Below, piece by piece: positions 46,640 to 63,853 of a stretch of 64,000 nucleotides of DNA. The notes under the pieces are model-generated. The model did not search any database and was not told the DNA's origin. It was given only the letters and a program-made list of their open reading frames with translations. The position numbers were made by a program, and so were the translations under genes. The DNA is from Alphaproteobacteria bacterium (GTDB lineage Bacteria; Pseudomonadota; Alphaproteobacteria; DSM-16000; Inquilinaceae): NCBI GenBank assembly GCA_028277405.1, contig JANQGH010000093.1, forward strand, positions 1 to 64,000. Direction: 5' to 3'. Every line of letters starts with the position of its first letter. The first letter of the stretch is position 1.

Positions 46640-46653
46640 AACAAGGGGGCATC

Positions 46654-47400: not shown

Positions 47401-48578
47401 GCCGCCAAGACGTCAAGATCCCGACCATCACGCTCAGCGCCGGTCCGGTCGATGCCTATCCGGCCGTGCTGCGGGCCTTGGGCCGCACCGTCACCTACGA
47501 TTTCGACCCCTATTTCCAGGGCGTGTTCGAACGTACCGCGCGCAAGGCCGCGCAGGCGCTGAACACCGATCAGCCGCCGCTGATCTTGCAAGGCGAACCG
47601 GTGCTGGCGCTGGAGGCCGCCGCCGCCTCGCTGATCGGGCCGGAGGATGTGGTGCTCAACCTGGCCTCCGGCGAATACGGCAAGGGCTTCGGCTATTGGG
47701 CGGCGCGCTATTGCAAGGAAGTGGTCGAGATCGAGGTGCCGTACAATGACGCGATCGCGCCGGACCAGGTGCGCGACGTGCTGGAACAGCGGCCCGACAT
47801 CGCTGTGCTTTCGGTCTGCCATCACGACACGCCGTCCGGCACGATTAACCCGGTCAACGAGATTGGCGCCCTCTGCCGCCAGCACGATGTCCTGATGATC
47901 GTCGATGCCGTCTCGTCCTGGGGCGGCATGGATGTCGATCCCATCACCAGCCACTCGGACGTTTTCATCACGGGGCCGAACAAGTGCCTGGGCGGCACGC
48001 CGGGCCTGTCGGTGGTCCATGTCAGCGATCGGGCTTGGGATCACATCGACGCCAACCCGAACGCACCCTTCGCCTCGATGCTCAGCATGACCGATTGGCG
48101 CAAGGCCTGGAGCGCGGATGAGAAGTTCCCCTTCACGCCATCGGTCGCCGAGGTCAACGGGCTGGAGGCCGCGCTCGACCTCTACCTGGAGGAAGGCCCG
48201 GAGACGGTTTGGGAGCGTCATGCCTTGACCGCCCGCGCCTGCCGCGAGGGCATGAAGGCGATGGGGCTGACCCTGTGGCCGGCGCGGGAGGAGATCGCCG
48301 CCGACACCTGCACGACGATCCGCGTGCCCGAAGGGTTGGAGGATGAGGCCATCCGCCAGGCATCGCGCGATCTTTATGGCGTCGTCTTCTCCGCCGGCCG
48401 GGGCTCCCTTGTCGGCAAGCTGATCCGTATCGGCCATATGGGCCCGGTCGCCGAGCCGGTTTACGCCACGGTCGCGATCACGGCCCTGGGCGGCGCGATC
48501 AACCATCTCGGCGGCAGCGCGGATATCGGCGCCGGCATCAATGCGGCGCTTGCCGTCATCAACGCAGCCAGGGTCTAA
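47397..48578 (+). CDS. ppaT: Pyridoxamine-pyruvate transaminase
   Basis: This 393-residue class V aminotransferase starts at ATG 47397 (ATGA overlap). It converts pyridoxamine and pyruvate to pyridoxal and alanine. Segments such as SAGPVDAYPAVLRALGRTV, NLASGEYGKGFGYWAARY, SVCHHDTPSGTINPV and LIRIGHMGPVAEPVYA match the characterised M. loti enzyme as I remember it. The aldimine Lys is in ITGPNKCLGGTPG (Lys196, near Lys197 of M. loti). Related alanine-glyoxylate aminotransferases lack several of these segments. It sits with pyridoxal dehydrogenase downstream, so pyridoxal is passed on directly. Confidence 0.9.
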   Translation: MSRQDVKIPTITLSAGPVDAYPAVLRALGRTVTYDFDPYFQGVFERTARKAAQALNTDQPPLILQGEPVLALEAAAASLIGPEDVVLNLASGEYGKGFGYWAARYCKEVVEIEVPYNDAIAPDQVRDVLEQRPDIAVLSVCHHDTPSGTINPVNEIGALCRQHDVLMIVDAVSSWGGMDVDPITSHSDVFITGPNKCLGGTPGLSVVHVSDRAWDHIDANPNAPFASMLSMTDWRKAWSADEKFPFTPSVAEVNGLEAALDLYLEEGPETVWERHALTARACREGMKAMGLTLWPAREEIAADTCTTIRVPEGLEDEAIRQASRDLYGVVFSAGRGSLVGKLIRIGHMGPVAEPVYATVAITALGGAINHLGGSADIGAGINAALAVINAARV

Positions 48579-49352
<774 letters not shown>

Positions 49353-49356: not shown

Positions 49357-50175
49357 CTAGCTGTAGTGGGCCGGCGCCGTCTTATAGGTCCCGAACTGCT
49401 CCAGATCGTGACTGACGAAGATCTCCGCCTCGTGCTTTAGGGCGATGTCCTTCAGCTTGCGGATCGACTGGACGGCCGCCACCGGGTCGAGGTGAAAGCT
49501 GGAGATGATCTCTTCATCGAAGCCCTTGCGGGTGTAGGCGGCGTCCGCCGTGAACAGCATCGGCTTGCGGCCGGAAAGCTCGACCAGCAGGGAATAGTGG
49601 CCAGCCGTGTGGCCGGGCGTTTCGATCAGATGCAGGCCCTTGGCGATTTCCTGCTGTCCGGTCAGCAATTCGACCTTCGGCGTCCAGACGTCCATTTCCG
49701 GGTCCGGCGGCAGGTCCTTGCCCTCGCGCTTGGCCTTTTCACGCAGCATGTCCGGGTGGAAGCTCATGTCCGAATAGCCCAGGATCTCGAAGGGTTGCGG
49801 GCACTTACATTGGCCGAATTCTGCCGCGTGGCAAACCGTGCACGCCTCCTTCAAATGCTTGTTGCCGCCGCAATGGTCGAAATGATAGTGCGAGTTGATG
49901 ACATAGTTGATGTCCTGGGTGCGATAGCCCGCCTTTTCGATCGCGCCTTGGATGGTCTGTTCCTTGGTTTGCTGGGGCTTTTCGAACGGCAGCACGGCCA
50001 TGACATGGTCGTAGTCGTAGCCCGTGTCGAACAGGTAGAGCCCGTCGGCATGGTCGATCAGCACGGAATACACCGGAAACCGCACCTCGCCTGCCGGCCC
50101 GCGGTTCCAATAGACGTGGAAGCCGTCGATCACCAGCGTGCCGCCATCCAGAATGTAGACCTTGGTGTCTTTCAT
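49357..50175 (-). CDS. 4-pyridoxolactonase (metallo-beta-lactamase fold)
   Basis: This 272-residue protein starts at ATG 50175 after GGGAGG; longer upstream frames are shadows. It has the metallo-beta-lactamase zinc motif NSHYHFDHCGG, downstream zinc ligands in ETPGHTAGHYSLL and TADAAYT. The segments KVYILDGGTLVIDGFHVYWNRG and DTGYDYDHVMAVLPFEKP match M. loti 4-pyridoxolactonase as I remember it, which hydrolyses 4-pyridoxolactone to 4-pyridoxic acid. N-acyl-homoserine lactonases are relatives but lack those segments. It is the last gene of an operon whose first four genes are a BMP-type ABC transporter. Confidence 0.9.
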   Translation of the reverse strand: MKDTKVYILDGGTLVIDGFHVYWNRGPAGEVRFPVYSVLIDHADGLYLFDTGYDYDHVMAVLPFEKPQQTKEQTIQGAIEKAGYRTQDINYVINSHYHFDHCGGNKHLKEACTVCHAAEFGQCKCPQPFEILGYSDMSFHPDMLREKAKREGKDLPPDPEMDVWTPKVELLTGQQEIAKGLHLIETPGHTAGHYSLLVELSGRKPMLFTADAAYTRKGFDEEIISSFHLDPVAAVQSIRKLKDIALKHEAEIFVSHDLEQFGTYKTAPAHYS

Positions 50176-50207: not shown

Positions 50208-51143
50208 CTAACGCTGTCCGCGCACATAGGGCAGCCCTAGCGCCGCCGGCAGGGCCGAACGCCTGGCAAAGATCACCAGCACGAGCATGACCATGGCAAA
50301 GGGCAGCATCTGCACAACATCCGTCGGCACGTTCACGCCGCCCACTTGCAGGGCCGTGGTCAGCGACAGGCTGACGCCGAACAGCAGCGCGCCATAGAGC
50401 ACCCAAGTCGGGTGCCCGCGCGCCAGCATGGCCAGCACGATGGCGATGAAGCCGGCCCCACCGGTCATGAACGGAATGAAGATGCCGGCCCCGATCATCG
50501 ACATATAGGCGCCACCCAGCCCGGCCATCATGCCGGTGAACAGCACGGCCAGCGTCCGGGTCGTCGTGACCGAAACGCCGGCGGCGTCCAGCGCGGCCGG
50601 CTTGTCGCCGGCGGCCTGCAGGTTGAGGCCGACATTCGTGCGCCGGAAGACCCAGACCAGTACGAAGACGGCGATGATGGCCAGATAGACGCTGGGGTGC
50701 CGGTCGAAGATACCGGGACCGATGATGGGGATCTGGGACAGCAGCGGGATGGGCAGCGTGTCGACCGCCGGCAGGCGCGGATAGGTGCGGCTGAACTGGA
50801 CATGGTGCAGCAGGGCGGTGATGCCGTCCGCGCCCAAGGTCAGCGCGATGCCGATCACGATCTGGTTCAGCCCCAACCGCACGCACAGCAGTGCCATCAG
50901 CAAGGCCAGGATCAAGCCGCCGGCCGCACCGCCGAGAAAGCCCAACCACAGCGACCCGCTCAGGAAGGCGACGTAAAAGCCGGTATAGGCGCCGAGCAGC
51001 ATCATGCCCTCGATGCCGATGTTCAAGACGCCGGCCTTTTCCGAGACTTGCTCGCCCAGCCCGGCCAGCAGAAGCGGGATGCCGGCAGCGATGGCGCCGG
51101 CGACCAGCGAGATCAGAAAGGCATCGCTCAACAGGCCCGACAT
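50208..51143 (-). CDS. BMP-type ABC transporter permease (COG1079 type)
   Basis: This 311-residue permease of the simple-sugar/nucleoside branch shows LLLAGLGEQVSEKAGVLNIGIEGMMLLGAYTGF, the family signature. VCVRLGLNQIVIGIALTLGADGITALL-type helices follow, and TGGAGFIAIVLAMLARGHPTW lies in the coupling region. It forms the channel with the preceding permease (gap of seven bases). Its stop lies 32 bases before 4-pyridoxolactonase on the same strand, suggesting the imported compound is a B6 vitamer. Confidence 0.9.
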   Translation of the reverse strand: MSGLLSDAFLISLVAGAIAAGIPLLLAGLGEQVSEKAGVLNIGIEGMMLLGAYTGFYVAFLSGSLWLGFLGGAAGGLILALLMALLCVRLGLNQIVIGIALTLGADGITALLHHVQFSRTYPRLPAVDTLPIPLLSQIPIIGPGIFDRHPSVYLAIIAVFVLVWVFRRTNVGLNLQAAGDKPAALDAAGVSVTTTRTLAVLFTGMMAGLGGAYMSMIGAGIFIPFMTGGAGFIAIVLAMLARGHPTWVLYGALLFGVSLSLTTALQVGGVNVPTDVVQMLPFAMVMLVLVIFARRSALPAALGLPYVRGQR

Positions 51144-51150
51144 GGCGCGC

Positions 51151-52251
51151 TCAGGCCCGCCGCGCCAGCGCGCGCCGATGGCTCAGCCATTCGGTCAAGG
51201 CCATGAAGATCAAGATCAGCGCGACCAGCACCAGGACGAAATAGTTCGGCAAGTCTGCGCGACGCGAGGCGGTTTCCCCGCCGATCGACAGCATGGCGAA
51301 GAAGAAGGTAAAGCCGATCACCGCGATGCCGTTGAACCGGGCCAGGAAAACCAGCGGGATGATGGCCAGCCCATAGCCCGGATTCCAATCCGCCCGCACA
51401 TTGCCCCAGACACCCAGGATTTCGACCGAGCCCGCCAGGCCGGCAAGCCCGGCGCTGAGGCCAAAGGTCACGACCGTCAGCAAGGGCACCGACAGGCCGG
51501 CATGCAGTGCGGCCTTGGGGTTGGCGCCGACGGTTTGCAGGCGCAGGCCAAAAGCGGTTCTGGTCATCACCCAATGAACCACCAGGATCACCACCACCGC
51601 GATCACGACACCGATATTGATCGTGGTGCCGAACAGCCGTGGCAGGCGGTCATCGGTCACCAGCGTCATGGTCTGCGGCACGGTGGTGTTGGGGTCGTTG
51701 AACGGGATCTTGATCAGCACGTTGGCCAGGCTGACGCCCAGAAAGCTCATCATCAGCGTCGTGACGATCTCATTCACGCCCTGATAGGCCTTTAGGAGGG
51801 CAGGGATCAGAGACCAGACCGCGCCGACCAGGAAACCGGCAATCATGCCGACCGGCAGCACGATCCAGGCGGGCGCGGATTGGATCATCCAGGCGGACAA
51901 GGCGGCGGTGATGACGGCCGCCAGCAGAAACTGGCCATCGATGCCCAGGTTCCACAGACCCGCACGGAACGCGACGATCAGGCTGGCGCCCAGCAGGATC
52001 AGCGGGGCGCAGCGCGTGATCGTCTCCTGCAGGCCGATCCAGGAGATCAGCCCGCGCCGCACGATATTGACGTAGAACGAGATCGGGTCGCGGCCCAGCA
52101 ACAGCAGGATGGCCGCCCCGACGATCAGCGCAAGCAGGATCGGCACCAAGGCCAGCACGATGCGGACCAGCCATTCCGGCATGCCGGTGCCTTGGCCCGA
52201 CAAGCCGGCGGAAGTCGGTGTCGGATCGTTTGTGCCAGCGTCCGCCGTCAT
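51151..52251 (-). CDS. BMP-type ABC transporter permease (COG4603 type)
   Basis: This 366-residue permease has a hydrophilic N-terminal leader, then VRIVLALVPILLALIVGAAILLLL and SWIGLQETITRCAPLILLGASLIVAFRAGLWNLGIDGQF. The latter stretch, with NLGIDGQ, is diagnostic for this branch. VNEIVTTLMMSFLGVSLANVLI and a TVGANPKAALHAG coupling loop follow. It starts within the last codons of the ATPase gene (four-base overlap). It partners the COG1079-type permease. Confidence 0.9.
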   Translation of the reverse strand: MTADAGTNDPTPTSAGLSGQGTGMPEWLVRIVLALVPILLALIVGAAILLLLGRDPISFYVNIVRRGLISWIGLQETITRCAPLILLGASLIVAFRAGLWNLGIDGQFLLAAVITAALSAWMIQSAPAWIVLPVGMIAGFLVGAVWSLIPALLKAYQGVNEIVTTLMMSFLGVSLANVLIKIPFNDPNTTVPQTMTLVTDDRLPRLFGTTINIGVVIAVVVILVVHWVMTRTAFGLRLQTVGANPKAALHAGLSVPLLTVVTFGLSAGLAGLAGSVEILGVWGNVRADWNPGYGLAIIPLVFLARFNGIAVIGFTFFFAMLSIGGETASRRADLPNYFVLVLVALILIFMALTEWLSHRRALARRA

Positions 52252-53837
52252 GCCGCCGCGCCGACGCCGATCATCAGCTCGCCCACCCGTCTTTGGGCGT
52301 CGCGATCATTGTCCACAATGCCGACCATCCGGCCTTGCAGCATGACGCCGATGCGATCGGACAGTTCCAGGATTTCATCCAGATCGGTCGAGATCAGGAC
52401 CGTCGCCACGCCCTGGTCGGCCTGTTCGCGGATTGCGCGACGGGCGAACTGGATGTTGTTGGCGTCCAGGCCATAGGTCGGCTTGTTGTAGATGACCGCG
52501 ATCGGCGCGTTGTCCAATTCGCGCGCCAGCAGCGCCTTTTGGATGTTGCCGCCGGACAGGCGGCCGATGGGCGTTTGCGGCCCTGGCGTGCGCACGTCAT
52601 GGCGGTCGATCAGGGTGCGCGCGTGGCGCTCGACCTCGCGCCTGCGGATGGTTCCGTTGCGCCAAAACGGCTCGTCGCCGATGCGCTTCAGCAGCAGATT
52701 GAGGCCGACTTGGAAATTGCCGACCGTGCCTTCGCCCAGTCGGTCGTCCGTGACGTAGCGAAGGCCGGCGCGCTGCCGCTGAACTACCGAGAGGCCGCTG
52801 ATCGGCTCGCCCTTCAGGCTCAGCGATCCGGCGGCGATCCTGCGCTGACCGGCCAGGGCCTCGGCCAGTTGCTTCTGGCCGTTGCCGTCGACGCCGGCGA
52901 TGCCGAAGACCTCGCCGGCCCGGACCTGAAACGCCACGCCGGTCACGGTGGGCTCGCCCGGCCCGGCGGCCGCGGCCAATCCGTCTACCGAGAGAATAAC
53001 CGGCCCCTCAACCAATCGGCTTTTGTCTCGGCCGGCCAACTCGTCGGCGCCTTCGGACGATGCCGTCCCGAACATGAGATCAACGATTTGCGTGATGGCT
53101 TGGTCCTCACCAAGCGCCGCGAGCTGATCGGGCGTCAGTTCGCCGACCTTGCGGCCGAGTTTCAGCACGGTCACGCGGTCGCCAAAGCGAACCGCCTCGT
53201 TCAGCTTGTGGGTGATGAACAGGATGGCGATGCCGGCGTCGCGCAGCCGGCCGATGACCTGGCCCAGATCCTCCACGCCCTTCGGCGTCAGCATCGCTGT
53301 CGCCTCGTCCAGGATCAGCACCTGCTCGCCGCGCCACAGCGCCTTGACGATCTCGACCTGCTGCTGTTGCCCGAGTGACAGGTCGCCGAGCGTCGCATCC
53401 TCCGGCAGCGATATGCCCAGCATCTGGCTGATCTCGGCCAGCCGCCGCCGCGTCGCGGCCCTGTTCATGCGCTGGTGCCAGGGCGCGCCCAGCATCAGGT
53501 TTTCCAGAACCGTGAGGGTCGGGACCAGCGTCGGATGCTGGTAGACCGTGCCGATGCCAAGCTCCAAGGCACGTCTTGGACTGGAAATCGCCGTGGCCTC
53601 GCCCCGTACCCGCATGCCGCCTGCGTCCGGCTGCAACATGCCGGACAGCATGGCGATCAAGGTCGACTTGCCCGCGCCGTTCTCGCCAAGCAGGGCCTGC
53701 ACTTCGCCGGGGTAGATCGACAGCGAAACGTCATCGTTGGCGACAACGCCGGGGAAGCGCTTTGTCACGCCGTCGACAACGACGATCGGCTCTTTGGCAC
53801 CGGTTTCAGCCGTGGCCGCTTGCAACGAGTTGGTCAT
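52248..53837 (-). CDS. BMP-type ABC transporter ATPase with two nucleotide-binding domains
   Basis: This 529-residue protein carries two ATPase domains in tandem, as usual for COG3845. The first has Walker A GENGAGKST, signature LSLGQQQQV and Walker B VLILDEATAMLTPKG. The second is degenerate as in the family, with GVDGNGQKQLAEAL at the Walker A place, signature LSGGNIQKA and IAVIYNKPTYGLD at Walker B. It energises both permeases from the cytoplasm. It is separated from the binding-protein gene upstream by a terminator-like hairpin, so it is probably made in smaller amounts. Confidence 0.92.
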   Translation of the reverse strand: MTNSLQAATAETGAKEPIVVVDGVTKRFPGVVANDDVSLSIYPGEVQALLGENGAGKSTLIAMLSGMLQPDAGGMRVRGEATAISSPRRALELGIGTVYQHPTLVPTLTVLENLMLGAPWHQRMNRAATRRRLAEISQMLGISLPEDATLGDLSLGQQQQVEIVKALWRGEQVLILDEATAMLTPKGVEDLGQVIGRLRDAGIAILFITHKLNEAVRFGDRVTVLKLGRKVGELTPDQLAALGEDQAITQIVDLMFGTASSEGADELAGRDKSRLVEGPVILSVDGLAAAAGPGEPTVTGVAFQVRAGEVFGIAGVDGNGQKQLAEALAGQRRIAAGSLSLKGEPISGLSVVQRQRAGLRYVTDDRLGEGTVGNFQVGLNLLLKRIGDEPFWRNGTIRRREVERHARTLIDRHDVRTPGPQTPIGRLSGGNIQKALLARELDNAPIAVIYNKPTYGLDANNIQFARRAIREQADQGVATVLISTDLDEILELSDRIGVMLQGRMVGIVDNDRDAQRRVGELMIGVGAAA

Positions 53838-53860
53838 CGGCGAAACCGGACTCTAACGAC

Positions 53861-53896: not shown

Positions 53897-53910
53897 TCTC
53901 AAGCGAAACG

Positions 53911-54957
53911 CTACTCGCTCGCGTCGACCGTGGTCATCAGCGCGCGAACCTCTTGCGCGTCAAAGATCGCGGGGACGTCGACCGCGCCGTCGATGATTGC
54001 CTGGCGGACCTCCATCAGTTCGGTCCAGGTTGCTGGCGGGATGTACTCGGTCTGCAGCAGCACGACGGAGTTGTCCTCCAGCCCGATCTCGTAGCCTACG
54101 GCACCGAAATCGCCATTGTTCAGATCGTCGATCATCGCCGTGTAGACGGGCTCCAGATCCCAGACAACGGATGACAGCAGGAAGCCGGTGTCGATCGAGG
54201 ACTTGTCGCCGATCACGTCGATGAACCAGGCCTGCTCGCCGTCCACGGCCGGTGTTGTCTCGATCGCCTGCAGCATGCCGAAGGTCGAGCCGTTGCCCTG
54301 GCCGAAGATGATGTCCGCGCCCGCCGCGATGACGGATTCGGTCACGCGGCGACCGCCGGCGGCATCGGCATACGCGGCCGGGCCGATCACCGCATAGATG
54401 ATGTCGATGTCCGGGTTGGCGGCCCGCGCGCCGAGCGCGAAGCCGGCCGACTGGCTGTTCCAGGACGGCGGTTCGCCCGATACCACGATGCCGACCGTAT
54501 CCGTACGCGACATGTTTGCCGCGAGGATGCCGGCCAGATAGGCGCCGTCGTGACCGCTTAGAGTGTAGTCGGCGATCAGGCCGGGCTCGACGGCCTCCGG
54601 CGTGTCGACGATGGCAACCGCCACACCGGTCTCGTGCGCGACTTCGGGGGCAGCCGTGTTGTAGCCGGAGGCGTGAGCGATGATCAGGTCCGCGCCTTCG
54701 CCCGCCAGTTCGCGCAAGGTCGGGCGGACGTCGCCATAGCCGAGGCCTTCGGCAGTGATGACCTCGACACCCATGGCCTCGCCCGCAGCCCGTGCCGCGT
54801 CGACGCCCTGCTGGTTCCAGCCAAAATCCGTGCCTTGCTCCGGCGTCATAACGGCGATGATTTCGACCTGCGCCTGGGCCGGCCCGGTCGCGATGGTCAG
54901 CGCGCCAACCGCCGCCATGGTCGTCAGAAAGGTGTTTCGAACTGCTCGATAAGCCAT
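53911..54957 (-). CDS. BMP-family ABC substrate-binding protein (candidate vitamin B6 receptor)
   Basis: This 348-residue protein starts at ATG 54957 (AGGGGG box) with a signal peptide ending GPAQAQ. The BMP/Med family is seen in MTPEQGTDFGWNQQGVDAARAAGEAMG, DLIIAHASGYNTAAPEVAHE, NMSRTDTVGIVVSGEPPSWNSQSAGFALGAR and IIFGQGNGSTFGMLQAI. Known members bind nucleosides and related compounds. Because 4-pyridoxolactonase ends this operon and the operon faces other B6 genes, a B6 vitamer is the likely ligand; that is inferred from context only. Confidence 0.88.
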   Translation of the reverse strand: MAYRAVRNTFLTTMAAVGALTIATGPAQAQVEIIAVMTPEQGTDFGWNQQGVDAARAAGEAMGVEVITAEGLGYGDVRPTLRELAGEGADLIIAHASGYNTAAPEVAHETGVAVAIVDTPEAVEPGLIADYTLSGHDGAYLAGILAANMSRTDTVGIVVSGEPPSWNSQSAGFALGARAANPDIDIIYAVIGPAAYADAAGGRRVTESVIAAGADIIFGQGNGSTFGMLQAIETTPAVDGEQAWFIDVIGDKSSIDTGFLLSSVVWDLEPVYTAMIDDLNNGDFGAVGYEIGLEDNSVVLLQTEYIPPATWTELMEVRQAIIDGAVDVPAIFDAQEVRALMTTVDASE

Positions 54958-55164: not shown

Positions 55165-55650
55165 TTAGACGAACTGGCAGTCTGCACGCGTATCGCCTAG
55201 CCGGCAACGCAGCGTGATTGTCCGGTCGGCGGTTCGCAGGCGGTCCACTGAAGGCTCTGTCCAGAGCGTTCGGTCCGGGCCCGGGCGCCCACAGATCAGG
55301 CGTTCGACCGCCATATGGTCGCCGACCTCATTCAGGATAGCCACGTCGCCGGTTGCGCTTCGGACCAATAGGGCCTGCGTGGCTTCGCCGCCCGGCGGGA
55401 TCGGTCCGATGGAGACCTCGAACCAGTGGGCGAGCAGGAACTGGCAGACAAGCGGCGCGGAATCGGAGCTGTTGACGATCGTCAGATCCGTTGATGTCCA
55501 ACCACCATTGGAGGCCGATGCAGGCGCGGTTGACAGCAGGCCGATCACGACAACCAGGCCGACCAGAGCGGCCGCCAGGCTAAAGCCGCATGCGTGACGC
55601 CTGTTCGCTGAGCTGTTGGGCGGCGGTCTTGACAATGTCCAGGATCTCAT
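55165..55650 (-). CDS. Small secreted protein of unknown function
   Basis: This protein of up to about 161 residues has a hydrophobic export segment (FSLAAALVGLVVVIGLLSTAPASAS) followed by a mature part rich in beta strands (WTSTDLTIVNSSDSAPLVCQFLLAHWFEVSIGPIPP-type text, ending RCRLGDTRADCQF). Four cysteines in the mature part could form disulfides in the periplasm. The start is uncertain: ATG 55650 implies a 71-base overlap with the regulator gene, and no good internal start was seen. I recognise no family. It lies downstream of the IclR gene on the same strand. Confidence 0.55.
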   Translation of the reverse strand: MRSWTLSRPPPNSSANRRHACGFSLAAALVGLVVVIGLLSTAPASASNGGWTSTDLTIVNSSDSAPLVCQFLLAHWFEVSIGPIPPGGEATQALLVRSATGDVAILNEVGDHMAVERLICGRPGPDRTLWTEPSVDRLRTADRTITLRCRLGDTRADCQFV

Positions 55651-56341
55651 GGCGTCGCTTGTCGTCGATGTTTTGTGCAAGGCCCGCTACGGTTAGCGCG
55701 CCGACCACGTCCTTGCCGTCCGCCACTGGCGCTGCGGCCGCCCAGATGCCTTGGTCGACTTCGCCGTGGCTGACACTCCAGCCTCTCGTCCGGATTGTGG
55801 CCAGCTCCTGATCCAGTTCGGCGCGGTCGGTGTCATCGTCCGCCGGCAAGGTCCGGAAATAGTGCTCCAGCTCCTGCTGGTTCAAGGCGGAGAGCAGGAT
55901 CTTGGCCGCCGCGCCGCGATGCAACGGCATGGCCCGTCCGACATCGAAGGACAGACGCACCGGGTGGGGGCTTTCGGACCGCGCGACGCATACGGCACTC
56001 TGCGCCACGCGCCTGAGCAGCAGACTGGTCTCGCCGCAGGCTTCGGTGATGGCGCGCAGGATCGGCATGGCCTTCTCCGCCAGCGGGTGCGCGGCAAGCG
56101 CGGCCCGTGCCAGGGGTAAGGCGCGAACGGACACGACGTAGGTGTTCGACGGCCCTTCCTCCAGCAAGCCGACCTCACGCAACAGCGAGATGTAGCGATA
56201 GGCCGTCGAAAGGGGCACGTCGGCCGACATGGCCAACTGCTCCGCCGTCGCCGACGGACGGCTTTCGTCGAAGCTCATCAGCAGGCGCAACACCTTGCGT
56301 GAGCTTCCTGTTCCTGACGTTTTTTGACCGGCACGTGCCAC
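55580..56341 (-). CDS. IclR-family transcriptional regulator
   Basis: This protein of about 253 residues has a winged helix-turn-helix (KVLRLLMSFDESRPSATAEQLAMSADVPLSTAYRYISLLREVGLLEE) and an effector domain with FDVGRAMPLHRGAAAKILLSAL and GEVDQGIWAAAAPV, typical of IclR. GTG 56341 is chosen over GTG 56347 because the GGGAG box is then at a normal distance. It is divergent from the bicupin/TRAP operon and is the obvious candidate regulator of that operon, responding to an aromatic or heteroaromatic acid. Confidence 0.9.
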   Translation of the reverse strand: MARAGQKTSGTGSSRKVLRLLMSFDESRPSATAEQLAMSADVPLSTAYRYISLLREVGLLEEGPSNTYVVSVRALPLARAALAAHPLAEKAMPILRAITEACGETSLLLRRVAQSAVCVARSESPHPVRLSFDVGRAMPLHRGAAAKILLSALNQQELEHYFRTLPADDDTDRAELDQELATIRTRGWSVSHGEVDQGIWAAAAPVADGKDVVGALTVAGLAQNIDDKRRHEILDIVKTAAQQLSEQASRMRL

Positions 56342-56511
56342 AGGCACCTCCCAAATCCCTCTGTCAAATCTCCACCCCTCTCGTCATCGCTTTCAGGCGT
56401 GAATCGTGATCGCCGCTTTGCCGGCTGACGAGCAAGGGTTGAATTACATCGCTGACTAGACTATCGGATCGTTATCGATCTTCTCATATAATGGTAAACA
56501 CATCTCACAGT

Positions 56512-56652: not shown

Positions 56653-57807
56653 ATGGCTGACACCACAGTCATAGACAAGACGGACAGCAATCGCGAGGCG
56701 GCGCTTGGCGCCCTTTACGACGATGTTTTCAACGCTCACATGTTTCCGTTCTGGGCGACCACGACGGATGTCGCGCACGACGAAGTCAAGCAGCTGATGG
56801 CCACCAAGCGGGCGGTGCCGTACCTTTGGCGCTACCGCGATCAGATCGAACCGCTGCTGCAGCGCTCGGCGGAACTGGTGACCATGGATGATTCCGAGCG
56901 CCGCTCGCTCGTCCTGGTCAACCCCGGTCTGGCGCCGACGCGCGCGACCGTCTCGACGCTTTACACCGCCTATCGGCTGAACGACCCGCACGAGGTGATG
57001 CCGCCGCACCGGCACTCGCCCAACGCCATCCGTTTTGGCCTGACGGGCGAGATGAACTTCACCGGTGTGGAGGGCGAGGATATCACCTTCGGCCCAGGCG
57101 ACCTGGTGTTGACCCCGCACGATACCTGGCACAATCACGGCAATACGGGCGACGAGCCGGCGGTCAACCTGTCCGTCTTGGACCTGCCCTTGGTCGAGAT
57201 CTTGAACGCGATCTATTTCGACCACGATTACAAGGAGGTGAAGGACGGCAAGATGGTCGCGGCCAAGCAGCAGAGCGCGCGCTTTCCGTCCGACTATTCC
57301 GCCCGCATTTACGAGTCCGGCGGCTATACGCCCCGCTTCGTCAGCCATTATCGCGGCACGGGCGCGGCGTCGCCGATGTATCTCTATCGCTGGGCGCCGA
57401 TGCGCGAGATTCTGGACAAGCACAAGGATTGGGACGGCGACCCGTACGAGGCGCTGATGGTTGAATACACCGATCCGACGACCGGCGGCCCCGTCTACAA
57501 GACCGTGACGTTCTTCGCCCAGATGCTGCGGCCTGGCGAGAAAACGCAGCCCTTGAAACAGACGGCCAGCCTGCTTGTCGCGCCCTTCGAGGGCAGCGGG
57601 TACTCGATCGTAGGCGACCAGCGTTTCGATTGGCAGCAATTCGACACGCTGGCGGTGCCGGGCGGCGAGTGGTGCCAGCATGTCAACGGCTCGGACACCG
57701 ATCCGGCAATTCTGTTCGTCGCCAGCGACGAGCCGACATTGAAAAAGCTGGGCTTTTACAAGAAATGGGGCCGCGACGGCTCGGGCGATACGGTTTCGCT
57801 CGTCTAA
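56653..57807 (+). CDS. Gentisate 1,2-dioxygenase-like bicupin ring-cleaving dioxygenase
   Basis: This 384-residue protein starts at ATG 56653 after GGAG; an ATG at 56491 lies too far upstream of any homology. The first cupin has the iron-binding set MPPHRHSPNAIRFGLTGE and TPHDTWHNHGN, and a second degenerate cupin follows (LKQTASLLVAPFEGSGYSIV, VPGGEWCQHVNGS). Relatives cleave gentisate, salicylate or 1-hydroxy-2-naphthoate between the hydroxylated and carboxylated carbons. Here it heads an operon with an FHMPC dehydrogenase homologue, RidA and GST. An ortho-hydroxy pyridine carboxylate is therefore a possible substrate, though an ordinary aromatic acid is not excluded. Confidence 0.85.
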   Translation: MADTTVIDKTDSNREAALGALYDDVFNAHMFPFWATTTDVAHDEVKQLMATKRAVPYLWRYRDQIEPLLQRSAELVTMDDSERRSLVLVNPGLAPTRATVSTLYTAYRLNDPHEVMPPHRHSPNAIRFGLTGEMNFTGVEGEDITFGPGDLVLTPHDTWHNHGNTGDEPAVNLSVLDLPLVEILNAIYFDHDYKEVKDGKMVAAKQQSARFPSDYSARIYESGGYTPRFVSHYRGTGAASPMYLYRWAPMREILDKHKDWDGDPYEALMVEYTDPTTGGPVYKTVTFFAQMLRPGEKTQPLKQTASLLVAPFEGSGYSIVGDQRFDWQQFDTLAVPGGEWCQHVNGSDTDPAILFVASDEPTLKKLGFYKKWGRDGSGDTVSLV

Positions 57808-57877
57808 CGACAAGAATGCGATGACAGTGGGGGCGCTCGGCGGGACCGAGACGCCCTGACGACAAGGAGGCTTTGAA

Positions 57878-58801
57878 ATGACCATTGCGGCGGTAATTGG
57901 ATTGGGCACCATGGGGCCCGGTATCGCGGCCACGCTGGCGCGCGGCGGCATGAAGATCCGGGTCTACGACACCAGTGCCGAGGCGCTGGAAAAGGCGCCG
58001 GGCATGGTCGCCATGGCCTTCGGCGTGCTGGACCGGTTGGGCATGCCCGACAAGGGCTCCGCCGACGACATCTCGTACCACACCGACCTGGCCGAGGCGG
58101 TGGACGGTGTCGGCTTGGTCGTCGAAACCGTGCCGGAGAAGCTGGAGATCAAGGCCGCCGTCTTCGCCGAACTCGACAAGATCGTCTCCGCGGACTGTGT
58201 GTTGGCCTCCAACACGTCCGGCATCCCGATCACCAAGCTGCAAGAGGGCAATTCCAACCCGGGCCGGGTCATCGGCATGCACTGGTCGAACCCGCCGATG
58301 ATCATCCCGATGATCGAGGTCATCGCCGGCGGCCAGACCGATCAGGGCACCGTCGACTGGATGTGCGATACCATCAAGGGGCTGAGCCTGCTGCCCGTCG
58401 TGGTGAAGAAGGATGTCGCCGGCTTCGTCGAAAACCGCATCCTCTACGCGATCATGCGCGAGTCGGTGGATCTGGTCGAACAGGGCGTGATCGATGCCGA
58501 AGGGCTGGATACCTGCGTCCAGTGGGGCATCGGCTATAAGCTCGCGATCATCGGCCCGATGGCGCTATTGGACATGGCCGGCCTCGACATCTATCAGGCC
58601 GTCGGCAGCTATTTGAATGCCGAGCTGTGCAACCGGCCGGACGTCTCGCCCTACATCACCGACCGCACCAAGGCCGGCAATCTGGGCCAGAAGACCGGGT
58701 CGGGCATCTTCTCGTACACCCCGGACGACATCCAGCGGCTGCGCGGCGAACGTGCCGCCGCCTTCGTCGCCGTGCGCAAGGCGCTGGAAGGCAAGTCCTG
58801 A
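57878..58801 (+). CDS. 3-hydroxyacyl-CoA dehydrogenase-fold enzyme, probable FHMPC dehydrogenase
   Basis: This 307-residue NAD-dependent protein has GLGTMGPGIAATLARGG at its start, NTSGIPITKLQEGNSNPGRVIGMHWSNPP with the catalytic His135, and a C-terminal helical domain (VVVKKDVAGFVENRILYA, CVQWGIGYKLAIIGPMALLDM). These match the M. loti 5-formyl-3-hydroxy-2-methylpyridine-4-carboxylate dehydrogenase, which I recall as a member of this fold, better than fatty-acid oxidation enzymes. That enzyme makes the dicarboxylic pyridine in B6 degradation. A strong AAGGAGG box precedes the ATG. A generic hydroxyacid dehydrogenase role remains possible. Confidence 0.78.
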   Translation: MTIAAVIGLGTMGPGIAATLARGGMKIRVYDTSAEALEKAPGMVAMAFGVLDRLGMPDKGSADDISYHTDLAEAVDGVGLVVETVPEKLEIKAAVFAELDKIVSADCVLASNTSGIPITKLQEGNSNPGRVIGMHWSNPPMIIPMIEVIAGGQTDQGTVDWMCDTIKGLSLLPVVVKKDVAGFVENRILYAIMRESVDLVEQGVIDAEGLDTCVQWGIGYKLAIIGPMALLDMAGLDIYQAVGSYLNAELCNRPDVSPYITDRTKAGNLGQKTGSGIFSYTPDDIQRLRGERAAAFVAVRKALEGKS

Positions 58802-58850
58802 TCGCGCGCCATTGATCCCGCAGATTCAACACATCTAGGAGAGCGCCGGC

Positions 58851-59978
58851 ATGGCCGATGCGCGCAATACCAAGCTTGTCGGTCATGTCGACTGTCCGGG
58901 CGGCGGCCAGGTTTGGGTCGAAGGCACGACCCTCTATATCGGCCATATGCGCCACCCATCCGGCACATCGATCGTCGATGTGTCCGATCCCACGAAGCCG
59001 AAGCCGCTGGCGCGGATCGACATGCCCACCGGTTGGCATTCCCACAAGGTGCGGGTCGCCAACGACGTCATGCTGGTCAATCACGAGCGGTTGGGACAGG
59101 ACGGGGAGGTCGAACTCGGCGGCGGCCTGGGCATCTACGACGTCTCCAAACCGTCCGACCCGAAGCTGATCACCAAATGGCGGACGGGGGGCAGGGGCGT
59201 GCACCGTTTCGACTTCGACGGCCGCTACGCCTATATCTCGCCGACGGCCGACGGCTATGTCGGCAATTTCTGCATGATCCTGGACCTGGCTGACCCCAGC
59301 AATCCCACGGAGGTTGGCCGCTGGTGGATTCCCGGCCAATGGCAGGCCGGCGGCGAGGACTATCCGTGGAACGATTGGGTGCCGCCGCGCTGTCACCATC
59401 CGCTGCGCCACGGCAACCGGCTTTATGTCAGCTATTGGCATCACGGCCTGTTCATCCTCGATATCGAGGATATGTCCCAGCCGAAGCTGGTCGGCCAGCT
59501 CAATACAAGCCCGGCCTATCCCCACCCGACCCACACCTGCCTGCGCATCCCAGACCCGCTGAGGGGGCGTCAGATCATGGTCGTGGCGGATGAGGACGTG
59601 GCCAAGCTGTGGCCCTCGCCGCCGGCCTTCGCCTGGGTTTTCGACATCACCGAGGAGCGGCTGCCACTGCCGATCAGCACTATCAACGTGCCCGGCATCG
59701 ACCCGGACGGATCGCCCCAGCCGCCCATGACCGGTTGCCACCAGCCGTCGGAGCGGTTCAGCGGCACCATCATCCCGTTCGCCTGGTTTGCCCAGGGGCT
59801 GCGCCTGTTCGATATCGCCGATCCCTATCAACCGAAGGAGGTCGGCCACTACCAGCCGGACCCGCCCAACGGCGCTGAACGCTCGTCCTCCAACGATGTC
59901 ACCATCGACGAGCGCGGCCTGATCTATCTGATCGACCGCCAGCGCGGCGTCGACATCATCGAAACCAGCGTCTTTTGA
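58851..59978 (+). CDS. LVIVD-repeat beta-propeller protein, His-rich
   Basis: This 375-residue protein consists of LVIVD-type beta-propeller repeats (GTSIVDVSDPTKPKPLARI, LGIYDVSKPSDPKLI, CMILDLADPSNPTEVGRWW, LFILDIEDMSQPKLVGQ, LRLFDIADPYQPKEVGHY). Conserved-looking histidines lie in TGWHSHKV, RGVHRFD, RCHHPLRHG, SYWHHG, HPTHTC and GCHQPS, reminiscent of metal-binding propellers such as selenium-binding protein/methanethiol oxidase. No signal peptide is visible. It lies between the dehydrogenase and RidA genes of the catabolic operon, so it may be an enzyme of that route. Function is not established. Confidence 0.8.
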   Translation: MADARNTKLVGHVDCPGGGQVWVEGTTLYIGHMRHPSGTSIVDVSDPTKPKPLARIDMPTGWHSHKVRVANDVMLVNHERLGQDGEVELGGGLGIYDVSKPSDPKLITKWRTGGRGVHRFDFDGRYAYISPTADGYVGNFCMILDLADPSNPTEVGRWWIPGQWQAGGEDYPWNDWVPPRCHHPLRHGNRLYVSYWHHGLFILDIEDMSQPKLVGQLNTSPAYPHPTHTCLRIPDPLRGRQIMVVADEDVAKLWPSPPAFAWVFDITEERLPLPISTINVPGIDPDGSPQPPMTGCHQPSERFSGTIIPFAWFAQGLRLFDIADPYQPKEVGHYQPDPPNGAERSSSNDVTIDERGLIYLIDRQRGVDIIETSVF

Positions 59979-59992
59979 CGGGAGTGCCTCCC

Positions 59993-60391
59993 ATGTCCGA
60001 CAGCGGCAAACGCGCCGACAAGTACCCGATCGGCAAGCGCAATCCGAACCTGCCGTTTCACCCAGCCGTGCGCGCCGGCGACTTCATCTACGTCTCCGGT
60101 CAGGTCGCCAAGGACGAAAACGGCGTCATGTGCGGCGGCACGATCGAGGAGCAGACGAAATGGACGCTGGAGGCGATCCGCCGGGTGCTGGCCGAGGAAA
60201 ACGCGGATCTCGCCGACGTGGTCAAGATCACCACCTATCTCGAGGATGCGCGCGATTTCGGCCGGTACAACGGCGTGTTCAAACAGTACTTTCCCGACGG
60301 CAATGTCTCGCGCACGACGGTCGAGGCGCGGGCGGTGATCACCACCAGCATCGAGATGGATGCGGTCGCCTACAAGCCGCTCAAGGACTGA
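59993..60391 (+). CDS. RidA/YjgF family enamine-imine deaminase
   Basis: This 132-residue protein starts at ATG 59993 after GGGAG. The RidA fold is seen in FHPAVRAGDFIYVSGQVAKDENG, EEQTKWTLEAIRRVLAEENADLADVVKITTYLEDARDFGRYNGVFKQYFPDG and the conserved Arg in RTTVEARAVI. RidA proteins hydrolyse reactive enamines and imines. Within an operon that may open a pyridine ring, such a step is expected, because ring cleavage next to nitrogen gives an enamine-like product. Confidence 0.9.
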   Translation: MSDSGKRADKYPIGKRNPNLPFHPAVRAGDFIYVSGQVAKDENGVMCGGTIEEQTKWTLEAIRRVLAEENADLADVVKITTYLEDARDFGRYNGVFKQYFPDGNVSRTTVEARAVITTSIEMDAVAYKPLKD

Positions 60392-60420
60392 CCGCAGATC
60401 TCACTCTAGGAGCCACCCCC

Positions 60421-61023
60421 ATGATCCGCCTTCTCGGCCGCAAAACGTCCGGCAACGTGCAAAAGGTCCTGTTCCTGTTGGAAGAACTGGGCCTGGCCTA
60501 CGAACGCGAGGATTACGGCCGCCAATTCGAAAACACCCAGACGGACGCCTATCTGGCCATGAACCCGACGGCCAAGGTGCCGACCTTGGTCGATGGCGAT
60601 CTGGTGATCTGGGAATCGAACACGATCCTGCGTTATCTGGCCGCGAAGACGGGCAGCGCTCTCTATCCCGCCGACCCGGCCGCGCGCACGCAGGTCGAAC
60701 GCTGGATGGACTGGCAGCTGGCCTCGCTGAACCCGCCTTATCTGGCCGTGTTCAAGGGCAGCCGGCTGGACCCGGCGGAACGAGGCGCCGGCTTCGACGC
60801 CAGCGCGAAGGATCTGGCGGCCCAGTTGACCATCCTGGACGGGGCGCTGGCCGACAGGGACTGGCTCGCCGGCGATGCTGTCTCGCTGGCCGAGTACTGC
60901 TTGGGCCCGATCATCCCGCGCTGCCTGAACTTCCCGATCGACCTGCCGGCGCTCGACCATCTGCGCGCCTGGCAGCAAAGGGTTGCCGCGCTGCCGGCCT
61001 ATTCGCGGGCGGTGCCGACCTAG
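60421..61023 (+). CDS. Glutathione S-transferase family protein
   Basis: This 200-residue GST starts at ATG 60421 (MIRLLGRKTSGNVQKVLFLLEELGL). The thioredoxin-like domain has MNPTAKVPTLVDGDLVIWESNTILRYLA (cis-Pro and the glutathione Glu-Ser pair), and the C-terminal helical domain has WLAGDAVSLAEYCLG. It is cytoplasmic. In gentisate pathways a GST-fold maleylpyruvate isomerase follows the bicupin enzyme. This one could likewise isomerise the ring-cleavage product, but it is not close enough to that class to call. Confidence 0.88.
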   Translation: MIRLLGRKTSGNVQKVLFLLEELGLAYEREDYGRQFENTQTDAYLAMNPTAKVPTLVDGDLVIWESNTILRYLAAKTGSALYPADPAARTQVERWMDWQLASLNPPYLAVFKGSRLDPAERGAGFDASAKDLAAQLTILDGALADRDWLAGDAVSLAEYCLGPIIPRCLNFPIDLPALDHLRAWQQRVAALPAYSRAVPT

Positions 61024-61030
61024 GCGCGCA

Positions 61031-61555
61031 ATGACCGTCCAGCCGGCCACGAGACACGGTTTTCTGGGCGTGGGCCGTGCGGCCCTGCGCTGGGCACTCG
61101 GCCTCTTGTTGATCGCCATGGTGCTGCTGAACGTGGCCAATGCCGCCGGCCGCTATCTGTTCGGGCACGCGATCACCGGGGCCGATGAGGTTCTGGTCTT
61201 CTCCATGGTCTGGCTGGTGTTCGCCGGCGTGGTGCTGGTGACGGCGGAGGGGCGCCATCTGCGGCTCGACTTGGCCGCGACGCTGTTCGCGGGCCGGTTC
61301 GGCGCCGCCCGCGCGCTGCTGATCAACCTGATCATCGCCGCGCTCTGCTTTTACGTCGCCTTGCAGTCCTGGGAAATCATCGGCCGCTTGGGCCAGATCG
61401 GCCAGCGCAGCATGGCGCTGGGCATTCCCATGGTCGTGCCGCACGCCGCCATCGCCATTGGCCTCGCGGCGACCGCCCTGGTCGCGTTGCTGCTCGCCTT
61501 TGGCCAGGTACGCCGCTTGTTTGGGCCCAATAGCGGCGGGGACCGTGAGATTTGA
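61031..61555 (+). CDS. TRAP transporter small permease (DctQ type)
   Basis: This 174-residue protein has four membrane segments and the DctQ signature around VANAAGRYLFGHAITGADEVLVFSMVWLVFAGVVL, with RRLF-type basic loops. ATG 61031 lies seven bases after the GST stop. It overlaps the large permease start by four bases. TRAP carriers use sodium-coupled uptake of carboxylates, fitting an acid such as pyridoxate or an aromatic acid. Confidence 0.9.
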   Translation: MTVQPATRHGFLGVGRAALRWALGLLLIAMVLLNVANAAGRYLFGHAITGADEVLVFSMVWLVFAGVVLVTAEGRHLRLDLAATLFAGRFGAARALLINLIIAALCFYVALQSWEIIGRLGQIGQRSMALGIPMVVPHAAIAIGLAATALVALLLAFGQVRRLFGPNSGGDREI

Positions 61556-62823
61556 CCTGGACCTTGCTGGCCTTGCCCGTGGCGCTGTTCGTCTTCGGCG
61601 TCCCGGTCTTCGCCGTCCTGCTGGCCGGCGCGACGGTCACGCTGCTGCTGTTCATGCCCATGCCGGCCATGGTGCTGCCGCAGATCATGTTCGGCGGCGT
61701 CGACAAGTTCGCGCTGTTGGCCGTGCCCTTCTTCATCTTCGCGGGCGAGCTGATGGGGCGCGGCGGCATCGCCGACCGGCTGGTCGACTGGGTGCTGTCC
61801 CTGACCGGCCATGTGCGCGGCAGCCTAGGCATGGCCACCGTCGGTACCGCGACCTTGATGGGCGCCGTTTCCGGCTCCAGCCCCGCCACGGTCGCCGCCA
61901 CCGGCCGCACGCTGTACCCCAAGCTGATCGAGAAGGGCTATGGCAAGAGGTTCTCGCTCGGCCTGATCGCCTCCAGTGGCTCCATCGCCATCGTCGTGCC
62001 GCCCTCCATCGCCATGATCCTCTACGGCGCCAGCGGCGAACAGTCGATCCCGCGCCTGTTCCAGGCCGGCCTGCTCCCGGGCCTGCTGATCGCCGCCCTG
62101 ATGATGGGCTATATCCTGATCTGGGCCGCACGCACCCACGCGGCACCTCAGCAGGGCTTCCGGTTCAAGCTGTTCCTGCGCGCCACCAAGCGCGCCTGGG
62201 CTGCCCTGCTCATGCCGGCCTTGATCCTGATCGGCATCTACGCCGGCTGGTTCTCGCCGACGGAGGCCGGCGGCGTCGCCTGCCTCTACGCCATGCTGGT
62301 GGCCCTGTTCGTCTACCGCACGCTGAACCTGCGCGGCATCATCGAGGCAGCGGCCGAGGCGGCCTATCTCACCGCCCAGATCCTGGTCATCGTCGCGGCC
62401 GCCGGCGTCTTCTCCTACATCCTGACCGTCAACGGCATTCCGCAGGGGCTGGTCGGCGCCATCGTCGAGATGGACCTGACGCCGGTCAGCTTCCTGATCG
62501 CCATCAACATCCTGCTGCTATTGCTCGGCTGCGTGCTGGACCCGACCTCCGCCATCCTCGTGCTGACGCCGATCCTGATGCCGGTCATCGCGCATCTCGG
62601 TATCGACCCGATCCATTTCGGCATCATCATGACGGTGAACTTGTCGATCGGCATGTTCACCCCGCCCTTCGGCCTCAACATCTTCGTCGCCCAGTCGGTG
62701 ATCTCGTCCGATCTCGGCGCAATCTATCGTGGCATCCTGCCGTTCCTGGCCGTTCAGATCGCGGCGCTTGCGATCATCACCTACGTGCCGGCCGTTTCGC
62801 TGGCGCTGTCCTGGATTTGGTAA
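61552..62823 (+). CDS. TRAP transporter large permease (DctM type)
   Basis: This 423-residue permease of about 12 segments begins at a TTG that overlaps the DctQ stop. It has FFIFAGELMGRGGIADRLVDW, GTATLMGAVSGSSPATVAATGRTLYPKLIEKGYGKRFSLGLIASSGSIAIVVPPSI and the C-terminal TPPFGLNIFVAQSV, all strong DctM signatures. It forms the transport channel with DctQ and is fed by the periplasmic protein encoded next. Confidence 0.93.
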   Translation: MTWTLLALPVALFVFGVPVFAVLLAGATVTLLLFMPMPAMVLPQIMFGGVDKFALLAVPFFIFAGELMGRGGIADRLVDWVLSLTGHVRGSLGMATVGTATLMGAVSGSSPATVAATGRTLYPKLIEKGYGKRFSLGLIASSGSIAIVVPPSIAMILYGASGEQSIPRLFQAGLLPGLLIAALMMGYILIWAARTHAAPQQGFRFKLFLRATKRAWAALLMPALILIGIYAGWFSPTEAGGVACLYAMLVALFVYRTLNLRGIIEAAAEAAYLTAQILVIVAAAGVFSYILTVNGIPQGLVGAIVEMDLTPVSFLIAINILLLLLGCVLDPTSAILVLTPILMPVIAHLGIDPIHFGIIMTVNLSIGMFTPPFGLNIFVAQSVISSDLGAIYRGILPFLAVQIAALAIITYVPAVSLALSWIW

Positions 62824-62842
62824 TCAAGCAGGGAGAAAGACA

Positions 62843-63853
62843 ATGAAGGCTCTCACCAACCTGACCATCGGTTCCACGCTCGTCCTCGCCGCGCTGGCCA
62901 CCCCGCTTACCGCTGAAGCGCAGACGACCATGAAGCTCGCCAGCGCCACTATCAACGACGTCCAGCACCAATGGCAGCAGGTTTTCGCCGAGGAACTGGC
63001 CGAACGCGTCGGCGACGCCGTCACGGTCGAGATCTATCCGGCCAGCCAGCTCGGCACCATCCCCCGCATGCTGGAAGGCGTGCTCTTGGGCACGATCGAA
63101 AGCTTCATCACCCCGACCGCCTTCCTGGTCGGCACCGACCCGCGCTTTCAGGTCTTCGGCGCGCCGGGCCTGTTCGAGGACGGCGCCCAGGTCGGCGCCG
63201 TGCTGCACGACCCGGACTATCGCGACCATATCGAGACTATGGCCCTGGACAGCGGCCTGCGCGTCATCGGCGCGATCTACAACTCGCCGATCCTGATCCT
63301 CTCCGTCGAGCCGACCGAGACCCTGGCCGATTTCGAAGGCCTGCGCGTGCGCACCTTCGCCACGCCCTTGCAAATGGCCCCGATGGAGGCCCTGGGCGCC
63401 AGCCCGCTGCCCTTAGCCCTGTCAGAAGTCGTGCCCGCCCTGCAGTCCGGCGCCATCGACGCAATGCTCGCCGGCATGCCGATCCTGACGGCGTTCCAGT
63501 ACTACGACGTCGCCGAATACGTCACTGACCTCAACTTCGCCACCGTGGTCTCGGTCAACGTCATCAACGAGGCCTGGTTCCAGTCCCAGACGCCCGAGGT
63601 CCAGGCCGCGATCCTCGAATCCGGCCGTGCGGCCGAACAAGAGGTCCTGCAATGGGGCATCGACAATGTCGGCCGCTCCAACCAGGTCTGGCTCGACAAT
63701 GGCGGCCAGATCCTGGACCTGTCCGACAGCGACATGGCCGAAATGCGCGCCATGTTCGCGCAAATCGCGGCGGAGATCATGGCGGCGGACCCGGCCGTGG
63801 AGGCGGAGTATCAGCGGCTGTTGGGCGTGGTGGAGGCGCATCCTGGGGGGTGA
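62843..63853 (+). CDS. TRAP transporter substrate-binding protein (DctP type)
   Basis: This 336-residue protein starts at ATG 62843 after GGGAGAAAG, with a signal peptide ending LTAEAQ. DctP features are VTVEIYPASQLGTIPRMLEGVLLGTIESFITPTAFLVG, LADFEGLRVRTFATPLQMAPMEALGASPLPLALSEVVPALQSGAIDAML. The conserved Arg in LRVRTF binds the ligand carboxylate, so the substrate is an acid. It is the last gene of the IclR-linked operon and precedes a terminator-like hairpin. Confidence 0.92.
   Translation: MKALTNLTIGSTLVLAALATPLTAEAQTTMKLASATINDVQHQWQQVFAEELAERVGDAVTVEIYPASQLGTIPRMLEGVLLGTIESFITPTAFLVGTDPRFQVFGAPGLFEDGAQVGAVLHDPDYRDHIETMALDSGLRVIGAIYNSPILILSVEPTETLADFEGLRVRTFATPLQMAPMEALGASPLPLALSEVVPALQSGAIDAMLAGMPILTAFQYYDVAEYVTDLNFATVVSVNVINEAWFQSQTPEVQAAILESGRAAEQEVLQWGIDNVGRSNQVWLDNGGQILDLSDSDMAEMRAMFAQIAAEIMAADPAVEAEYQRLLGVVEAHPGG

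Follow-up and report, generated by a model that had tools for sequence, protein, structure and literature searches.

How does a bacterium equipped with the upper genes of vitamin B6 degradation open the pyridine ring when the enzymes that do so in the textbook route are missing from the same stretch of DNA? Among the catabolic pathways of cofactors, that of B6 has been called the best understood, and a second way to break the ring, degradation pathway II, comes from Pseudomonas IA and Arthrobacter Cr-7 (PMC3538738). Of the two B6 routes described, the one with known genes opens the ring by the flavoenzyme MHPCO. Pathway II instead goes via 5-pyridoxolactone and 5-pyridoxate and uses another oxygenase. 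An earlier note on the 64,000-nucleotide stretch analysed here (the window) had observed, correctly, that neither MHPCO nor AAMS hydrolase lies in it, and had put forward an alternative B6 ring opening. That idea is now supported by genomic absence, by co-occurrence and by replacement at the same locus. Judged from the sequence, the window quite likely holds a cluster for B6 catabolism in which ring opening falls to an alternative module, whose bicupin dioxygenase would cleave 3-hydroxy-2-methylpyridine-4,5-dicarboxylate (HMPDC) at C3-C4.

Results

The operon in question adjoins B6-degradation genes at 45045-54957, which either pass curated score thresholds or match B6 enzymes of solved structure. 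The forward strand carries pyridoxine 4-oxidase (PNO, a GMC protein; 45045..46568, 527 bits to 4ha6), a class II aldolase-type protein (46630..47400), pyridoxamine-pyruvate transaminase (PPAT; 47397..48578, NF046070, 626 bits against a cut-off of 600) and pyridoxal 4-dehydrogenase (an SDR; 48609..49352, NF047923, 412 bits against 325). On the reverse strand lie 4-pyridoxolactonase (49357..50175, NF047925, 452 bits against 325) and the B6 ABC transporter, comprising permease 1 (50208..51143, NF047928, 539 against 465), permease 2 (51151..52251, NF047929, 507 against 400), the ATPase (52248..53837, NF047930, 758 against 670) and the substrate-binding protein (53911..54957, NF047927, 467 against 400). 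The aldolase-type gene was considered as an HMPDC decarboxylase and rejected, with 61 bits to mlr6791 (2z7b) compared with 527 bits for the true orthologue.

The proposed ring-opening operon follows on the forward strand at 56653-63853. Its first five genes (56653-61023), which the earlier note had already placed in one operon, are all intact and on one strand, with intergenic gaps of 14-70 bp, and the family assignments made there hold. They encode a bicupin dioxygenase with the gentisate/salicylate 1,2-dioxygenase fold, the proposed ring opener (56653..57807; profile, PDB and residue comparison); a homologue of the HMPDC-forming 5-formyl-3-hydroxy-2-methylpyridine-4-carboxylate (FHMPC) 5-dehydrogenase, FHMPC-DH (57878..58801; NF042925, 4om8); an LVIVD propeller protein, a candidate metal hydrolase for the ring-opened product (58851..59978; Pfam LVIVD); a RidA-family imine/enamine deaminase (59993..60391; Pfam Ribonuc_L-PSP); and a weakly MaiA-like glutathione S-transferase (GST; 60421..61023; profile matches and linkage to the bicupin). 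Profile matches identify the remaining genes as TRAP transporter components DctQ (61031..61555), DctM (61552..62823) and the substrate-binding DctP (62843..63853), and a divergent gene on the reverse strand (55580..56347) as an IclR-type regulator, the place of which is taken by a GntR/FCD regulator in most other bicupin clusters. Inspection of the ORFs on the 12 kb of contig that remain downstream revealed no B6-related genes.

The canonical ring-opening enzymes also escaped detection in the rest of the host genome. The search that the earlier note had proposed, extended to the HMPDC decarboxylase (HMPDdc), gave no match to MHPCO at a threshold of 1e-10, to HMPDdc at 1e-15 or to AAMS hydrolase at 1e-25. 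FAD monooxygenases encoded elsewhere were rejected as MHPCO candidates, given that the best of 27 PF01494 matches looked like other hydroxylases by inspection and that the direct search was empty. Cleavage by a bicupin requires a carboxylate beside the hydroxyl, and HMPDdc would remove that carboxylate, so its absence fits cleavage of HMPDC itself.

The clearest picture of the exchange comes from Mesorhizobium. Among 146 genomes, FHMPC-DH is present in 56, of which 34 carry MHPCO and 22 the bicupin, with none carrying both and none carrying neither. At one fixed locus, the bicupin, LVIVD, RidA and GST genes stand in place of the HMPDC decarboxylase, MHPCO and AAMS hydrolase genes of M. loti MAFF303099, the strain from which the solved structures of FHMPC-DH, MHPCO, AAMS hydrolase and HMPDC decarboxylase come. 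Canonical and alternative clusters are 92-97% identical over the B6 ABC-PDLA-PPAT part, 85% in FHMPC-DH, 81% in 4-pyridoxate dehydrogenase and 54% in PNO. From general background and its position, we take the GMC gene adjoining FHMPC-DH in MAFF303099 to be 4-pyridoxate dehydrogenase (mlr6792). Because the Mesorhizobium genomes are related, the 34/22 split may represent one or a few exchanges.

The module also recurs far beyond this genus: B6 clusters in Alpha-, Beta- and Gammaproteobacteria contain it, and its carriers include many soil and marine bacteria. Beside 70 close bicupin homologues, LVIVD is found in all 70 cases, FHMPC-DH in 62, GST in 60 and RidA in 59; GST and RidA are absent from ~15% of loci, some of which end at contig ends. 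Ten more distant bicupins (51-58%) lack all four of these neighbours. The B6 binding protein lies near 56 of the 70 within the flanks fetched, and 4-pyridoxolactonase occurs in 15/15 bicupin genomes tested. To the question of whether the two clusters co-occur in other genomes, raised by the earlier note, the answer is that they stand together in most of the 70 loci and in several classes.

We propose that the upper route would proceed as known, from pyridoxine or pyridoxamine through pyridoxal, 4-pyridoxolactone, 4-pyridoxate and FHMPC to HMPDC, which would then be neither decarboxylated at C4 nor opened by MHPCO. The Fe(II) bicupin would bind the C3-hydroxyl and C4-carboxylate of HMPDC, much as salicylate dioxygenase binds salicylate, and with O2 would cleave the bond between C3(OH) and C4(COOH). 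This cleavage is predicted to give the ketimine HOOC-C(CH3)=N-CH=C(COOH)-CO-COOH. The LVIVD protein would probably hydrolyse it to pyruvate and aminomethylene-oxaloacetate, an enamine from which RidA would free ammonia, and GST may aid isomerisation or further breakdown.

The FHMPC-DH homologue in the window scores 485 bits to NF042925, just under the cut-off of 500, which homologues in other bicupin clusters exceed, and reaches 374 bits to PDB 4om8, with the next PDB family at 139 bits. HMPDC is probably made, because most loci have FHMPC-DH next to the bicupin, with a score above its cut-off or slightly below it. The step before it was taken for granted in the earlier note, but the host genome holds no orthologue of the 4-pyridoxate dehydrogenase that would oxidise 4-pyridoxate to FHMPC, only generic GMC proteins at 43-47%; a plasmid search for FHMPC-DH gave no match. 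Of 30 other bicupin genomes, 24 have such an orthologue (57-82%), in most cases next to the bicupin, and six lack one; on the FHMPC-DH tree two changes are needed to place the genomes without it, which may or may not form one lineage. That 7 of the 31 genomes tested, host included, have the bicupin cluster and lack this dehydrogenase could mean that the bicupin opens the B6 ring earlier, on 4-pyridoxate or FHMPC, with FHMPC-DH then acting on a ring-opened compound. The chemistry would allow it, since 4-pyridoxate bears the same 3-OH/4-COOH pair and FHMPC too has a hydroxyl beside a carboxylate. However, retention of 4-pyridoxate dehydrogenase in the 24 genomes and the close linkage of FHMPC-DH, which argues that HMPDC is made, render earlier action unlikely.

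It is more doubtful still, and in our view very improbable, that the substrate of the operon is some other hydroxypyridine or aromatic acid, the B6 genes being mere neighbours. The operon does have its own divergent IclR regulator and TRAP transporter, and distant bicupin relatives are found outside B6 clusters. Against this, linkage to B6 genes recurs across classes, and in Mesorhizobium the module is an exact swap for the canonical ring-opening genes, with FHMPC-DH never left without one or the other.

The best NCBIfam match of the bicupin is 5-aminosalicylate dioxygenase MabB (NF049978), yet the score is 216 bits against a cut-off of 650; for gentisate dioxygenase (TIGR02272) it is 209 bits, below the cut-off of 442. 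The best PDB matches are gentisate and salicylate dioxygenases, and together with the profile scores they make the protein gentisate-type. In a residue comparison made against PMC11264262 and PMC10306065, all catalytic residues are kept, with the Fe ligands H119, H121 and H160 and residues R83, R127 and H162 invariant in 64 homologues. The fold, three-His iron site and R83/R127/H162 are those of gentisate 1,2-dioxygenase (Silicibacter, E. coli) and of the salicylate 1,2-dioxygenase of Pseudaminobacter salicylatoxidans, but identity is only ~27-31% and the pocket differs. Gentisate 1,2-dioxygenase has conserved substrate-pocket residues Gln108, Trp172 and Asp174 (PMC11264262), and these gentisate/salicylate dioxygenase positions read R108, N172 and S174 (Q108R, W172N, D174S) in 64/64 bicupin homologues. 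The altered pocket is not HMPDC-specific, because the ten distant bicupins outside B6 clusters share it. An ordinary gentisate or salicylate dioxygenase pathway, with the bicupin and a MaiA-like isomerase, would suit the fold, the catalytic residues and the weak MaiA likeness of GST, but is barely credible given scores far under curated cut-offs, replacement of all three pocket residues, including Asp174, to which the gentisate 5-OH binds, and linkage to B6 genes.

For the LVIVD protein, the nearest PDB relative by both sequence (E 6e-10) and fold (E 6.6e-18, TM about 0.7) is the Sphingobium TCM1 phosphotriesterase, or haloalkylphosphorus hydrolase (5hrm), at 18-20% identity and with a different substrate class. 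Its homologues share many invariant His, Asp and Glu residues. In RidA, R108 and E122, which we take to be the catalytic Arg and Glu of active RidA, are at least 97% conserved among 60 homologues.

Discussion

Compared with B6 degradation pathway I (Pseudomonas MA-1 and M. loti MAFF303099), the route proposed here has like upper-pathway and transporter genes, occupies the same Mesorhizobium locus, and shares FHMPC-DH with it, as well as 4-pyridoxate dehydrogenase in most genomes. It differs in that the bicupin, LVIVD, RidA and GST replace HMPDC 4-decarboxylase, the flavin-dependent MHPCO and AAMS hydrolase. In the open-licence literature, no paper came to light that describes a cupin taking part in B6 degradation. 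If true, the cupin route would be a third B6 ring-opening chemistry, present in many Alphaproteobacteria and in 22 of 56 FHMPC-DH-bearing Mesorhizobium species genomes, and the single Mesorhizobium locus would amount to a natural experiment in pathway-module swapping. Functions would be gained for an LVIVD family and a RidA/GST pair, and annotations of the bicupin as gentisate dioxygenase-like would need correcting.

On a more detailed version of this reading our judgement is evenly balanced. The bicupin would open a hydroxypyridine dicarboxylate (HMPDC, at C3-C4), as the first cupin dioxygenase to do so, and the LVIVD protein would be a metal hydrolase of a new type with the ketimine as its substrate, so that B6 would yield pyruvate and a short keto acid rather than acetate and succinic semialdehyde. 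Lineages that lack 4-pyridoxate dehydrogenase, the host included, would rely on FHMPC-DH or another enzyme for both oxidations, and in the class sampled this route, not the textbook one, would accompany FHMPC-DH. P. salicylatoxidans DSM 6986 has its own copy of the bicupin in a B6 cluster (L062).

The degradation of vitamin B6 has been described as two routes (PMC3538738), and in 2025 a paper on the breakdown of riboflavin still counted B6 among the few cofactors whose catabolism is well characterised (PMC12746152). In the open-licence papers that we searched, neither a cupin nor an LVIVD protein is reported to take part in B6 degradation. The genes analysed here make it very probable that a bicupin module (bicupin, LVIVD protein, RidA and GST) provides an alternative way to open the B6 ring, and its exchange with the canonical genes, which encode the 3-hydroxy-2-methylpyridine-4,5-dicarboxylate (HMPDC) decarboxylase, the flavin ring-opener MHPCO and the AAMS hydrolase, is strongly supported. 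Specific cleavage of HMPDC is the predicted activity of the bicupin, and a likely one.

In the window, the operon spans 56653-63853 (+); the five genes claimed in the earlier note are in place and co-directional, and TRAP transporter genes extend the operon beyond them. Family searches agree with the families named there: a gentisate-type bicupin, a homologue of FHMPC dehydrogenase (FHMPC-DH, the enzyme making HMPDC), an LVIVD propeller, RidA and GST. To the left (45045-54957), the genes for pyridoxamine-pyruvate transaminase (PPAT), pyridoxal 4-dehydrogenase and 4-pyridoxolactonase each exceed curated cut-offs, as do all four parts of a putative B6 ABC transporter, and pyridoxine 4-oxidase (PNO) scores 527 bits against the solved enzyme, so that the B6 setting of the operon is solid. 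Between PNO and PPAT lies a class II aldolase/decarboxylase-type gene (46630-47400, +), distant from the HMPDC decarboxylase and found in none of the other bicupin loci, whose product may act on a ring-opened product.

Within Mesorhizobium, FHMPC-DH occurs in 56 of 146 genomes. The MHPCO known from M. loti MAFF303099 occurs in 34 of the 146 and the bicupin in 22, two sets that do not overlap and together make up the 56, a split that does not represent 56 independent events because the genomes are related. At the MAFF303099 locus (L145), FHMPC-DH is 100% identical to the PDB structure 4om8 and neighbours the crystallised MHPCO, AAMS hydrolase and HMPDC decarboxylase. The canonical and alternative Mesorhizobium clusters are syntenic, with PNO at one end, and have in common a 4-pyridoxate dehydrogenase-type GMC enzyme, FHMPC-DH, a NitT-type ABC transporter, a B6 ABC transporter, 4-pyridoxolactonase and PPAT. 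The stretch from PNO to FHMPC-DH holds AAMS hydrolase, MHPCO, two small genes and the decarboxylase in canonical clusters, and the bicupin, LVIVD, RidA and GST in alternative ones. Protein identity between types is similar to that within types across the transporter-lactonase-transaminase part and lower at FHMPC-DH (85%), the GMC enzyme (81%) and PNO (54%), as would be expected if one cluster end had been exchanged as a block. In an arbitrarily rooted tree of FHMPC-DH, a supported clade of bicupin-type sequences encloses a single clade of the canonical Mesorhizobium ones; hence, the canonical type may be derived in this genus. The transporter after FHMPC-DH is variable: the window and several genomes have a TRAP transporter, and Mesorhizobium has a NitT-type ABC transporter, in canonical and alternative clusters alike (loci L143-L162 and the bicupin loci).

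The genome search proposed in the earlier note matched neither MHPCO (1e-10) nor AAMS hydrolase (1e-25, run without a positive-control genome) in the window's own genome (97.7% complete), and HMPDC decarboxylase had no match at 1e-15. Across 30 other bicupin genomes, the top MHPCO relatives showed 37% identity, apart from a 49% fragment interrupted by a stop, and the top decarboxylase relatives at most 42%. The fragment, with its internal stop (L164, in the Skermanella stibiiresistens genome of bicupin locus L040), may be what is left of the canonical route in this bicupin carrier. Among 385 alphaproteobacterial genomes, MHPCO relatives reached at most 50% identity; FHMPC-DH was present in six at 1e-100, the window's own included, and adjoins the bicupin in all six.

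Co-occurrence with B6 genes in other genomes, implied by the earlier note, is borne out by a survey that took one genome for each prokaryote species and found 80 bicupin loci. Seventy of these bicupins share at least 60% identity with that of the window; LVIVD occurs at all 70 of their loci, FHMPC-DH at 62, GST at 60, RidA at 59 and the B6 transporter binding protein at 56, counted within flanks that contig ends often cut. The ten more distant bicupins lack LVIVD, FHMPC-DH, GST and RidA altogether. Most hosts belong to the Alphaproteobacteria, and some are Beta- and Gammaproteobacteria bins. The bicupin usually follows a GMC oxidoreductase and a GntR/FCD regulator, and a single 4-pyridoxolactonase exceeds the cut-off in 15 of 15 bicupin genomes tested.

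In HMPDC, C3 bears a hydroxyl and C4 a carboxylate, the two groups that salicylate-type bicupins chelate together, and this carboxylate is exactly what the canonical decarboxylase removes; absence of the decarboxylase is therefore a requirement of the bicupin route. The bicupin would cleave HMPDC at C3-C4 to a ketimine, which would fall apart into pyruvate and an aminomethylene acid. Going by family knowledge, RidA would release ammonia, which fits its conserved Arg and Glu. The LVIVD protein, the most constant partner of the bicupin, has a propeller metal hydrolase as its nearest solved relative in sequence and fold, which suggests, again by family analogy, that it may hydrolyse the ring-opened product.

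The predicted bicupin model (pLDDT 89) best matches gentisate and salicylate dioxygenases, and across 64 homologues the iron ligands H119, H121 and H160 and the catalytic R83, R127 and H162 do not vary. The known enzymes of these two kinds conserve Gln108, Trp172 and Asp174 (PMC11264262), the last of which binds the 5-OH of gentisate (PMC10306065). In contrast, all 64 homologues have Arg, Asn and Ser at these positions, as do distant bicupins outside B6 clusters. At position 108, arginine takes over from a residue in contact with the carboxylate of the substrate, a change that would fit a dicarboxylate, HMPDC for example.

The main misfit of the B6 route in the window's own organism is the absence of 4-pyridoxate dehydrogenase. 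This GMC enzyme is readily recognised, at 57-82% identity, in 24 of the 30 other bicupin genomes, but no orthologue was found genome-wide in the window's own genome or those of loci L042, L044, L047, L049, L057 and L058, all seven of which have the bicupin cluster; on the FHMPC-DH tree, two changes are needed to explain this. Either FHMPC comes from another GMC enzyme or FHMPC-DH itself in these genomes, or the bicupin takes an earlier intermediate.

Distant bicupins L104, L106, L109, L111 and L113 (56-58%), without LVIVD or FHMPC-DH, lie near a molybdopterin hydroxylase and a luciferase-like monooxygenase, in some with a TauD dioxygenase, and possibly belong to another heteroaromatic pathway. 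Strain DSM 6986 of Pseudaminobacter salicylatoxidans, the species source of the crystallised salicylate 1,2-dioxygenase, has the present bicupin as a second one, inside a B6 cluster (locus L062).
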